Virus record (IMG/VR): IMGVR_UViG_3300044998_000101
Location: 1-41,093 of that record
Source: a virus
Direction: 5' to 3' (one strand)
Length of the DNA: 41,093 bases
Shown: positions 9,595 to 32,095 of the stretch, piece by piece
How positions within the stretch are numbered: the stretch's first letter is position 1
Layout: the number at the start of each line of letters is the position of its first letter
Position numbers and translations under genes: made by a program
The notes under the pieces: model-generated
Database searches by the model: none
What the model saw: the letters and a program-made list of their open reading frames with translations, nothing else
Told to the model about the DNA's origin: nothing

Positions 9595-9613
9595 GGTATT
9601 CCCTTCTTAGTGT

Positions 9614-9641
9614 AAGGGGGCTGAGTTTCCCCAACCCCCTT
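9614..9641 (-). terminator. Hairpin after the major capsid gene (weak terminator or mRNA stabiliser)
   Basis: AAGGGGG and CCCCCTT arms flank a 14-base loop, directly after the capsid gene stop. In the reading direction it is followed by ACACTAAG rather than a U tract. It is therefore more likely a 3' stabiliser or partial terminator that raises capsid mRNA over downstream genes. Confidence 0.5.
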
Positions 9642-9653
9642 GTATTTTCAATC

Positions 9654-24146: not shown

Positions 24147-24490
24147 GTTGTCTCCAGTATTCTTTTCTTGATTTCTTCAGTTGTTAGACAGTTTTTGTTG
24201 CTCACACCGGCATAAAAGTCGCAGTCATTTTCTAACTCTCGGTGGTAGATCGGCTTGTGGTTTGAGAATCTAATTTTGTACATTGTGTTTTCTTTATACA
24301 CAAAGACATACTTTGATACCCTAACCTCGTACACCTTAATGTTCCAGCCGGCTTCTATCATGTCTTTAATAAACAGTAGCCATTTTGCAACCGGATATTT
24401 TGTTGTGTACTCTGCAATCCTTTCGTCTACCATTTCCTTTGTAACTTTCCTCGCTCGGTGAAAGTTCTTCTTGAAAGGTAATCGTGTCAT
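24143..24490 (-). CDS. 115-aa basic protein of unknown function
   Basis: A basic protein beginning MTRLPFKKNFHRARKVTKEM, with a helical segment (AKWLLFIKDMIEAGWNIKVY) and beta strands (VSKYVFVYKENTMYKIRFS). It has two cysteines in the last third. No family is recognised. It is coupled by four-base overlaps to the RlpA-like gene upstream and the 96-aa gene downstream. Confidence 0.6.
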   Translation of the reverse strand: MTRLPFKKNFHRARKVTKEMVDERIAEYTTKYPVAKWLLFIKDMIEAGWNIKVYEVRVSKYVFVYKENTMYKIRFSNHKPIYHRELENDCDFYAGVSNKNCLTTEEIKKRILETT

Positions 24491-25182
24491 AGTAATTCAA
24501 TCTTGACGTTGCTCCCATTTTTCTCAGTAGGCTCTAAGCGGTGGTTATTGGTCTTAGCGCCAATTTGTAATGCTAATCCGTGGCTCAGGTCGGCCACGCG
24601 GTCGTACTTAGCGAATCCGCCACAGTCGGTGATTGTTGCCTCACTGGTCAATCCGTTGTCGAGGTTAGTAACGCGCACCTTGGTGTTGTATCGGATCGTC
24701 TTGTCGAGGATCAATTCACAAGGCACGGCAAGTGTCATTGCGTTTTCGTCGAATGGCTGGCCGTTCCCCATGATTTGTTTTTCACCACAACCCAAACATC
24801 CAGCGTGTGAATATGAACTCACTTTGCCCATGTAGGTTAGCTTTGGCTCTGGGGTTGGCTCAGAAGCGTGTGCAACTGGAACGATCTTGACTGACGCGCT
24901 TTCGGTTGCTTCCTTTGCGCTGTCGGTTGCCGGCGTTGGAGTTCCCACTGGGTTAATCAACTCTCGGCTTCGCTCTTTTACTAAAATAGGTGACTGAATA
25001 ATGATGGGACTCTGGTAATCGAAGTAATACTTGTTGTAAAAAGCATTTGAGCCTACAACAATGCCCGTCAGCAATGTGATGATTATTCCGGCGGTTGCGC
25101 CAATCTTCACAGCAGTCGGTACTTTGAAGTCGAACCCGATGGTGTCGCTTTCAAGTTTTGGTTTAATGTTTTTGAATTGCAT
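24487..25182 (-). CDS. Membrane-anchored RlpA-like double-psi beta-barrel protein
   Basis: A 231-residue protein. After a cytoplasmic start there is one membrane helix (about 26-48: AVKIGATAGIIITLLTGIVV), then a Ser/Thr/Pro/Ala-rich linker, then an RlpA-like barrel (about 115-215): YMGKVSSYSHAGCLGCGEKQ, FDENAMTLAVPCELI, VRVTNLDNGLTSEATITDCG, RVADLSHGLALQIGA. RlpA/expansin-type barrels bind or cleave peptidoglycan glycan strands; the key Asp is present in TDCG and the final DLS motif is kept. Extra cysteines (GCLGCG, DCGG) could form disulfides. It may loosen the wall during lysis, entry or exclusion. Confidence 0.8.
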   Translation of the reverse strand: MQFKNIKPKLESDTIGFDFKVPTAVKIGATAGIIITLLTGIVVGSNAFYNKYYFDYQSPIIIQSPILVKERSRELINPVGTPTPATDSAKEATESASVKIVPVAHASEPTPEPKLTYMGKVSSYSHAGCLGCGEKQIMGNGQPFDENAMTLAVPCELILDKTIRYNTKVRVTNLDNGLTSEATITDCGGFAKYDRVADLSHGLALQIGAKTNNHRLEPTEKNGSNVKIELL

Positions 25183-25515: not shown

Positions 25516-25544
25516 AGTATGCCTCGGTATTAAAGACTTGTCAA
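25516..25544 (-). promoter_or_regulatory. Promoter upstream of 25500-23366 genes
   Basis: Read leftwards: TTAACCC then TTGACA (25544-25539), a 17-base spacer and CATACT (25521-25516). The stretch around the -35 box is nearly identical to the promoters at 22.85, 28.98 and 30.85 kb. Confidence 0.75.
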
Positions 25545-29931: not shown

Positions 29932-30416
29932 AATGGCCTCACGTAACTTTTATCTCTCGAAAATGTCGATCCGGTTCGGTCGAATTTAATCCGGTAGCTT
30001 TTGGGGTAAACTCGTACAACTTCCCCGTCTCCGAAGCAAAAATCATGCACTCGTGTTCCCACGGTAATGAGTTTGTCCAATGCGTCGCGGGTTGCTTGGC
30101 GTTTGCGTTCAGCGTCACCCTTCACTTGGGCTTTGCCCGCGTCGATCCAATCAGCCTTCTTGCGCAACTCGTCGGCTTCGGTGAGTAGTTGCAATCCGGC
30201 CTCGTATCGGTCAGTGATTCTCGCTCGTCGTTTTGCGAATGGGCTATTGGCCTTTGCTGGTTGGAACATGAATCCGTGGTCGCCATGGTATGACTTAAAC
30301 TCTTGCATCTTCTGCTCTGCTTGAGCTTCTAACCTGTCAGCTTGAGCGCGGAGTTTGGCGGTGTATCGGTCGCGCTTGGCTTGTCGGTATGCTCTGATCT
30401 CTTTTTGCGTGTACAT
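29928..30416 (-). CDS. DUF3560-like helical protein with C-terminal KOW-like strand set
   Basis: A 162-residue basic protein. Residues 1-110 form two long helices with the DUF3560-like pattern RYTAKLRAQADRLEAQAEQK, MFQPAKANSPFAKRRARITD, RYEAGLQLLTEADELRKKAD. Residues 120-162 (VGTRVHDFCFGDGEVVRVYP, KSYRIKFDRTGSTFSRDKSY) read like a small beta barrel of the KOW/Tudor type. AAGGAGAGAC before the ATG is a good ribosome site. DUF3560 proteins are found in phages and plasmids without known function. Confidence 0.7.
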   Translation of the reverse strand: MYTQKEIRAYRQAKRDRYTAKLRAQADRLEAQAEQKMQEFKSYHGDHGFMFQPAKANSPFAKRRARITDRYEAGLQLLTEADELRKKADWIDAGKAQVKGDAERKRQATRDALDKLITVGTRVHDFCFGDGEVVRVYPKSYRIKFDRTGSTFSRDKSYVRPL

Positions 30417-30424
30417 GTCTCTCC

Positions 30425-30592
30425 TTAAAGGTAAATGTAGTATTCAGTTTTTCCCATATAGTTCACAGGAATCTTTCGGGCAACTTGGCCGTTGGCGCGT
30501 CGAACTAATGCCTTGCGCTTGGGTGCGACGGCAGGGCGCAAACGTGATTTAGCTTTGGAAGTAATGCCGAGTAGGCGTAAAAGTGTTTTCAT
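30425..30592 (-). CDS. 55-aa very basic protein behind the structured leader
   Basis: The frame reads MKTLLRLLGITSKAKSRLRP, then AVAPKRKALVRRANGQVARK and IPVNYMGKTEYYIYL. It is strongly basic and likely binds nucleic acid or ribosomes. A GGAG lies eight bases before the ATG. It is the first gene after the structured RNA at 30622-30804, so that RNA is its 5' leader. Confidence 0.6.
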   Translation of the reverse strand: MKTLLRLLGITSKAKSRLRPAVAPKRKALVRRANGQVARKIPVNYMGKTEYYIYL

Positions 30593-30621
30593 TTTTATTC
30601 TCCATTTTTATATTTAGTCTT

Positions 30622-30804
30622 GAGAGAGGAGGAATCAGAATTGCTATATTGGTTGGTTTGGTTATCGTCCGCGTCGCCATCTCAGATTTGCGGTTCGCCC
30701 TTGCGGGACAGGCCAGTGGTTTGATGGTTTCCACCTTGTCAGCCATCCGATTATCTGAGGTAGTAGCGCCCTTCCTAGGGAGCAACCCTGATTTCTCATC
30801 TCTC
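30622..30804 (-). ncRNA. Structured RNA element closed by a 24-nt inverted repeat
   Basis: On the minus strand the first 24 bases pair with the last 24 (30804-30781 with 30645-30622) at 22 of 24 positions, two of these by G-U wobble. Inside, CTCAGAT pairs with ATCTGAG (30759-30753 with 30687-30681). This encloses GGT-GGAA-ACC and CCC-GCAA-GGG hairpins, both with GNRA-type loops. A CCCT-AGGA-AGGG hairpin lies between the two outer helices. The element starts 20 bases after a -10 box and ends 30 bases before a basic-protein gene, so it is a leader RNA or a processed ncRNA. No riboswitch class could be assigned. The open frame across it looks unlike protein. Confidence 0.7.
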
Positions 30805-30823
30805 TTAACTTGTTAATAGCTTA

Positions 30824-30852
30824 ATTATGCCTTATTATTAAAGGGTTGTCAA
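30824..30852 (-). promoter_or_regulatory. Strong promoter in front of the structured RNA
   Basis: Read leftwards: TTAACCC then TTGACA (30852-30847), a 17-base spacer and CATAAT (30829-30824). This is the best match to consensus of the shared promoter family. Confidence 0.8.
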
Positions 30853-30924: not shown

Positions 30925-30967
30925 AAAAGTTCGAGTCCTATTTACTAGGGAAGACGAGACTCGAACT
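30925..30967 (-). terminator. Terminator-like hairpin after 30969-31403
   Basis: Read leftwards: AGTTCGAGTC pairs with GACTCGAACT across a 20-base loop, followed by TTTT. It begins right after the stop of the upstream gene. The TTCGAGTC string resembles a tRNA T-loop, but the arms pair with each other and no tRNA fold is possible. Confidence 0.7.
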
Positions 30968-30968
30968 C

Positions 30969-31403
30969 TCAAAACATATACACTTCGCCACAATGGCTGT
31001 TTGCGGGTACTAGGTGTACGGGTTTGGTCATCTGTTGGTCGGCGCGTTTATGCCTAAAATGGAGAGTATGCTCGGGTAGCTCTAGGTTGTTTAGGTGGTA
31101 CACCCGTGCGATTTTGGCGGTTTCAAAGTAATACACCACAAAGTAATCAAACTGAGGGTAATTCCGGACTACTGCCACTTTGTCAGCGGAAATAAAGTAA
31201 TTCGGGTAAGCGTTCGCTCCAATGTCTCTCACATTCACGTCCAGCCCTGCTCCAATCTGACCGTTGTAATAGCCTCGAAAATCAAAGATCGCCGTTTTTT
31301 TCTGGCTTTGTTGCCACTGGTATGGCCTCAGCATCGGAACTAAGTCCTGAATGCTGGTGAGAATGTAAAGCTCGTTCTCTAAATCTTTTTGGTTTACGTA
31401 CAT
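30969..31403 (-). CDS. 144-aa protein of unknown function
   Basis: A mixed protein: YVNQKDLENELYILTSIQDL, AIFDFRGYYNGQIGAGLDVN, VAVVRNYPQFDYFVVYYFET, then AKIARVYHLNNLELPEHTLH. The strand-rich middle with acidic and aromatic residues could be a nuclease-like alpha/beta fold, but no catalytic set is clear. It follows the structured 350-nt stretch and ends at a terminator, so it may be the only protein of that transcript section. Confidence 0.6.
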   Translation of the reverse strand: MYVNQKDLENELYILTSIQDLVPMLRPYQWQQSQKKTAIFDFRGYYNGQIGAGLDVNVRDIGANAYPNYFISADKVAVVRNYPQFDYFVVYYFETAKIARVYHLNNLELPEHTLHFRHKRADQQMTKPVHLVPANSHCGEVYMF

Positions 31404-31753
31404 AAAGTTACCTATGCTTCCCGCGGTGGTGTTGATGTTTTGGCACGACTAACCAACCCTTAGTAATAGCCCCGTCAATAAAGGAGTGTTCCTAGTGGTG
31501 TTTCAAATCTTAGTAGCGTGTCCGGTTTTCTCTCCGCCTACTGCAAAGTAACGGGCAAAGGGAACGCAGAGGTGTATCGTTTCACACGTGCATCGCCCCT
31601 TGGCTCTTATATTCCGCGCCGTCGCCTTCTCGCGGTTGGTGGCTCAATGCCTCCCACTGGAATCCTGTCCAGTACATCAGTGTTCAGCGGTCGTTACTCG
31701 CTGAGTTCCAGAGCTGAGCCTTACTCCAGCCCCAGAACTCAACGCACAACGAG
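31404..31753 (-). ncRNA. 350-nt gene-free stretch dense in stem-loops, candidate structured RNA
   Basis: No convincing gene is present on either strand. The minus-strand RNA can form a 14-bp hairpin (GAGTTC.GGGGCTG with CAGCTCT.GAACTC). It can also form TCAGCG/CGCTGA, ACTGGA/TCCAGT, CCGCG/CGCGG, a three-part AAGGG-GCA-GTGT/ACAC-TGC-CCCTT stem, and GTAG-CGG/CCG-CTAC, one after another. It lies between the zinc-ribbon gene and the 144-aa gene, on one transcript. The number of nested helices in 340 bases is high, so a functional RNA is likely, though no known class was recognised. Confidence 0.55.
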
Positions 31754-32095
31754 CTAGGATGCCTTTTTTCGCCGTCGTTCATCCCGCTTCGCTAGTAGTT
31801 GTTCTGCCTTTGCTCCGCGCGCTTTAATCGCGTGTTCACAGGCCGTCCGTGCGTGTTTACTCCATTGCTCGCCATAGGCTTGTTGCAGTAGCGCCTTACA
31901 CGCATAACAAATACCGTACTGAGAATCTTTGGAAATAATACGAACGTGCGCGTGTTTTCCGCACATGTCACAAATACCGCCTGAAGTTTTCGGCGGTGTC
32001 ACAAAAGTGTTTTGAGGGGTAGGAACAGAACGGGGCGCTGTTTGTGCTAGCTCCCTTGCTCGTTTGATCGCTTGTTCTACGGTTATTTTTGCCAC
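31754..32095 (-). CDS. Zinc-ribbon protein behind an attenuator-like leader
   Basis: A 113-residue protein from a GTG at 32095. An AAGGAG lies eight bases upstream, within the 3' arm of the leader hairpin. It has a helical start (MAKITVEQAIKRARELAQTA), then CDMCGKHAHVRIISKDSQYG and ICYACKALLQQAYGEQWSKH, a two-pair zinc ribbon. A helical basic tail (KARGAKAEQLLAKRDERRRK) follows. An in-frame GTG at 32170 would add 25 residues read through the hairpin, which is less likely. It may be an early regulator. Transcription comes from the promoter at 32211-32239. Confidence 0.7.
   Translation of the reverse strand: MAKITVEQAIKRARELAQTAPRSVPTPQNTFVTPPKTSGGICDMCGKHAHVRIISKDSQYGICYACKALLQQAYGEQWSKHARTACEHAIKARGAKAEQLLAKRDERRRKKAS

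Follow-up and report, generated by a model that had tools for sequence, protein, structure and literature searches.

A candidate structured 5' leader closed by a 24-nt helix upstream of a small basic protein gene in an uncultured tailed phage

The window analysed here is the whole stretch of 41,093 nt of the IMG/VR record IMGVR_UViG_3300044998_000101, which originates from an uncultured tailed phage; none of the annotated phages searched is closely related to it. The genes surrounding the 183-nt stretch considered here are encoded on the minus strand and its RNA is accordingly read from position 30804 to 30622 (Table 1). The promoter preceding it is the best match within the part scanned (25-41 kb) and the closing helix begins approximately 20 nt downstream, confirming the proposal of the first-pass annotation that the element lies right after the strongest shared promoter. 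Judged from the promoter sequence, transcription would start at approximately position 30817. Between the promoter and the Shine-Dalgarno (SD) sequence with its ORF lie approximately 210 nt without a convincing gene. The SD is embedded in the context AUGGAGAAUAA, which recurs ahead of other genes of the phage, and the 55-aa ORF behind it agrees with the tiny basic protein gene that had been predicted to follow the RNA; no family or homologue of this protein was found in the collections searched. It is followed in the operon by genes encoding proteins of 162, 115, and 122 aa, for which no Pfam or convincing PHROG match was obtained. The genes for a Rad52-type annealase and a YqaJ nuclease lie in a second unit downstream.

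Table 1. Features at the leader locus, in the order of reading on the minus strand
Feature	Position	Strand	Evidence and remarks
Terminator-like hairpin AGTTCGAGTC...GACTCGAACT + TTTT	30926..30969	-	end of upstream gene; folding, local z -4.5
Promoter: -35 TTGACA, 17-nt spacer, -10 CATAAT	30824..30852	-	11/12 consensus positions
5' arm of closing helix	30781..30804	-	purine-rich, GAGAGAUGAGAAAUCAGGGUUGCU; 22/24 pairing with 3' arm, 0/2000 shuffles
Open leader frame overlapping 55-aa gene	30549-30785	-	intermediate codon score
Interior, 135 nt	30646..30780	-	structure no greater than chance, z -0.44
Inner 7-bp helix, 5' strand CUCAGAU	30753..30759	-	pair probability 0.9-1.0; excess over chance not established
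Inner 7-bp helix, 3' strand AUCUGAG	30681..30687	-	pair probability 0.9-1.0
3' arm of closing helix	30622..30645	-	pyrimidine-rich, AGCAAUUCUGAUUCCUCCUCUCUC; CCUCC at 30632-30628 can pair with SD
Shine-Dalgarno GGAG of 55-aa ORF	30600..30603	-	sequence; 18 nt after helix
55-aa ORF, first gene of operon	30425..30592	-	strongly basic: 7 K, 7 R, 1 acidic; pI 11.4

The upstream TTAACCC and the spacer of the promoter at 30852 are common to the promoters at 25544 and 28977. At these sister promoters only approximately 28-38 nt separate the -10 element from the start codon and a similar A-rich ribosome-binding site (RBS) follows directly, indicating that the leader behind the 30852 promoter carries a specific extra segment; from its sequence, this unit looks like the standard unit with an added segment of approximately 200 nt. 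A wider family of minus-strand promoters (25544, 28977, 30852, and 22853) has the TTGACA and spacer pattern in common, with an upstream TAACCC in three of the four, and it possibly marks the site of a phage or host regulator. The terminator-like hairpin upstream, the loop of which exceeds the length allowed in the terminator scan, suggests that the 30852 unit is a separate transcription unit. This hairpin, next to TTTT, has a long perfect stem, and on either strand its motif GTTCGAGTC resembles a tRNA T-loop; it would be a terminator or, possibly, an attachment-site remnant. In the gene upstream of it, a phage PDDEXK family of Pfam is matched weakly, below the threshold.

On the minus strand, positions 30804-30781 and 30645-30622 pair through 20 Watson-Crick and two G-U pairs, leaving a U.C and an A.C mismatch at positions 7 and 11. 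The 22 of 24 paired positions, G-U pairs included, had been described before and are borne out here beyond what shuffled sequences give: the best 24-nt pairing reached in 2000 dinucleotide-shuffled leaders was 20, and among 225-nt segments on both strands of the whole genome a pairing of 22/24 is unique to the leader. When the full leader was folded from the putative start at 30817 into the ORF, the paired positions of the helix showed pair probabilities of 0.85-1.0. With arms no more than 400 nt apart, a genome of the same make-up would by expectation contain approximately 0.4 pairs of this kind on each strand, and the position of the helix within the leader therefore matters to the argument. 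The 24-nt closing helix in the leader is genuine and non-random.

The 135 nt enclosed by the helix fold no better than shuffled sequences, 65 of 200 being at least as stable, and it is thus the outer helix that makes the 183-nt unit more stable than shuffled sequences (z -3.47). Approximately 16 of the 1342 windows of 180 nt in a genome scan showed a z near -3.5 or lower, so that stability alone does not single out the region. From the inner structure described in the first-pass annotation, the 7-bp helix does form, although taken together the interior contributes no structure above chance level; the hairpin with the GCAA loop (CCCGCAAGGG) is only half-formed (pair probability approximately 0.5), and the one with the GGAA loop (GGUGGAAACC) is nearly absent from the ensemble (pair probability 0.03). 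A further hairpin, CCCUAGGAAGGG, is also half-formed (approximately 0.5).

Relatives were searched with the annealase, the 162-aa, the 55-aa and the PDDEXK-like proteins, the terminase (as single sequence and as alignment) and the promoter motif in IMG/VR. Neither the leader nor the 55-aa gene has a relative in any collection searched, and a near-identical contig (99.99%) stops at position 30403 of the window, just short of the leader. Distant phages share the terminase at 39-56% identity and contain no detectable leader or tested neighbouring genes. G007 and G010 are the two relatives on record with a long early region; neither matches the leader DNA, and in neither was a convincing similar long helix found after promoters. 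The 55-aa protein is unmatched in G007 and the 162-aa protein in both. The latter has one homologue (44%) in a different context (L010). Searches of phages and plasmids by blastn and tblastn returned no match or weak ones, mostly in the A-rich RBS stretch, and in genome contigs the promoter motif matched twice, without phage context. Within these collections the leader is a single orphan sequence, in which the helix is solid and the rest of the structure is not.

A promoter, approximately 210 geneless nucleotides, a non-random helix and then an SD with its ORF support a structured leader of some kind. Our preferred reading, to which we assign a probability of roughly 0.4, is that the 183-nt stretch acts in cis as the 5' leader stalk of the phage operon and keeps the SD open by default; the helix would probably set translation or cutting of the message of the 55-aa gene. 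We infer transcription of the leader, the effect on translation and the involvement of RNase III or a protein. In this model the two 24-nt ends of the nascent leader would pair into the helix, leaving between them a 135-nt loop whose folding is at chance level. The helix would end 18 nt before the SD and tie up the pyrimidine-rich arm UUCCUCCUCUCUC, which could otherwise pair with GGAG, making an open ribosome-binding site the default state. Opening or cutting of the helix would free the 3' arm to cover the SD and lower expression. Candidates for this step are RNase III, the binding of a protein (possibly that encoded by the 55-aa ORF) at the 5' arm, or the entry of a ribosome at an AUG within this arm. 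As a stalk the helix compares with the lambda N leader or an rRNA leader-trailer helix, and by analogy with the latter it may be an RNase III site.

The sequence is consistent with a leader that would be open by default and would close on opening or cleavage of the helix. With the helix in place the SD bases are unpaired with probabilities of 0.64-0.95, mostly approximately 0.9, while on removal of the 5' arm the four GGAG bases drop to 0.02-0.15, mostly below 0.05, by pairing with the CCUCC of the 3' arm. Among random 24-mers from the genome, just 0.7% equal the 3' arm in covering the SD; shuffled versions of the arm do so in 22% (mononucleotide) and 46% (dinucleotide) of cases, showing that the coverage largely follows from the C/U-rich make-up, of which the anti-SD pairing may be a side effect. 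An anti-SD within the same mRNA has been described for icaR of Staphylococcus aureus, where pairing of UCCCCUG in the 3' UTR with the SD was shown experimentally and RNase III is involved (PMC3868564). In both mRNAs a C-rich stretch can pair with the SD; the anti-SD of icaR, however, is located in the 3' UTR, whereas that of the phage lies in the 5' leader and is predicted only. If the reading of a default-open leader stalk is true, it would be a simple case in which a long-range mRNA helix beside a recombination gene cluster controls phage gene expression. That it would, beyond this, define an undescribed class of phage leader RNAs, in which an end-to-end helix serves as anti-anti-SD and is switched by the basic protein of the operon or by RNase III cleavage, seems improbable.

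Among the alternatives, a processing stalk is rather unlikely; here host RNase III would cut the long helix, release the interior as a separate RNA and give the operon mRNA a new 5' end. Long helices that close a segment and are cut by RNase III are known from bacterial rRNA leader-trailer pairs (PMC10250234), and the phage leader resembles these in a long, near-continuous helix that joins both ends of a segment around a loop, with pair probabilities near 1; a double helix of approximately 20 bp or more closing a segment, as in an RNase III stalk, is present (22/24, probabilities 0.85-1.0). In contrast to the rRNA systems, the 135 nt to be released are not a functional rRNA. They have no structure beyond chance, no relatives and no Rfam match, and the helix has two internal mismatches. 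The same pairing could also reside in the DNA, which we consider unlikely: a small mobile element with terminal inverted repeats of 24 bp could have left a remnant between promoter and RBS, or a palindrome bound by a protein could have been inserted there. The G-U pairs had been taken to favour an RNA over a DNA repeat, an argument that turns out thin because the opposite strand, with 21 of 24 positions paired and one G-U, folds more stably (-69 kcal/mol against -62 kcal/mol for the minus strand) at about equal z (-3.45 and -3.47). Since both strands fold equally significantly, folding does not tell an RNA role apart from a DNA-level inverted repeat; the absence of the segment from the sister promoters and an arm identity of 20/24 at the DNA level likewise agree with an insertion. 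However, the segment is present in a single copy, with no second one in the phage or in the collections searched, target-site duplication does not go beyond AA in the flanks, and the transcribed strand pairs slightly better (22 versus 21). A MITE-like mobile element would come with multiple copies and target-site duplications, with which the single copy and the flanks sharing only AA do not agree. It is also improbable that the leader is or was protein-coding, although one minus frame containing MADKVETIKPLACPARANRKSEMATRTITKPTN... is open through the whole leader into the 55-aa gene, which counts against a leader stalk. Its codon score of 0.15 per codon exceeds that of 95% of wrong frames and lies higher than the 5th percentile for real genes, and an open frame scoring equally well occurs in only 1.2% of shuffled leaders. 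No SD precedes its ATG (30746) or TTG (30785), however, whereas the surrounding genes have strong SDs; the frame overlaps the 55-aa gene and shows no convincing family or homologue. A 45-aa ORF inside the RNA (30799-30662) was discarded, as it has no SD and a codon score of -0.36, like wrong frames.

In the lambda pL-N region, a promoter is followed by a leader of approximately 220 nt, a long RNase III hairpin before the SD of a small basic protein, and recombination genes downstream. The phage locus is alike in the promoter, the leader length, the long helix before the SD of a basic protein and the downstream recombination genes, and the order of leader, small basic protein, Rad52-type annealase and YqaJ exonuclease recalls the pL operon. 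An antitermination leader, either of the lambda nut/N type, in which the basic protein would act as N, or of the HK022 put type, is nevertheless very improbable. The hairpin CCCUAGGAAGGG, which we take to be reminiscent of boxB, counts in its favour. Unlike in lambda, the leader contains no boxA within one mismatch, the minus strand from 24 to 30.8 kb yielded no intrinsic terminator to be overcome, the helix encloses 135 nt instead of a short loop and the proteins are unrelated in sequence; a lambda-type nut/N leader, which would combine boxA followed by boxB with downstream terminators, is not supported. The put RNAs of HK022 are similarly RNA elements just past an early phage promoter but differ in fold, comprising approximately 70 nt with two stem-loops (PMC9378689), while the interior here has no structure beyond chance. 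The roles originally suggested for the RNA, i.e., a ligand-sensing riboswitch, a stable trans-acting ncRNA or a host-factor sponge, appear highly doubtful. They are in line with the leader position and with superficially cobalamin-like strings (GGUG.AA..CC and CCCGCAA); this likeness to the cobalamin riboswitch had already been judged superficial, and no such Rfam model matches at E up to 10. Scanned against Rfam at gathering scores the sequence is unmatched, and relaxing the limit to E up to 10 added nothing but chance matches to sR6 and bxd_5. The interior is at chance level, there is no intrinsic-terminator switch that would speak for a riboswitch, and for an ncRNA or sponge neither a terminator at the 3' end of the RNA nor a relative was found. 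The 6S covariance model is unmatched, and no tRNA or tmRNA was found.

Elsewhere on the minus strand, a gap of 350 nt without a convincing gene (31404-31753) lies between the 138-aa and 144-aa genes. It has no relevant Rfam match and no homologue, contains a long hairpin near its 5' end (z -5.0 at 31599-31778) and is possibly a better structured-RNA candidate than the 183-nt leader. At 24487-25182 (minus strand) a 231-aa protein is encoded whose GCLGC...ITDCGGF motif resembles RlpA-like/3D-domain proteins; G007, a distant relative, has it as well (L020:11994-12506). Directly after the 311-aa gene, a G/C-rich 12-bp hairpin (AGGGGGTTGGGG...) is located at 9595-9653 (minus strand), and the segment surrounding it gave the lowest z (-5.7) when the genome was scanned.
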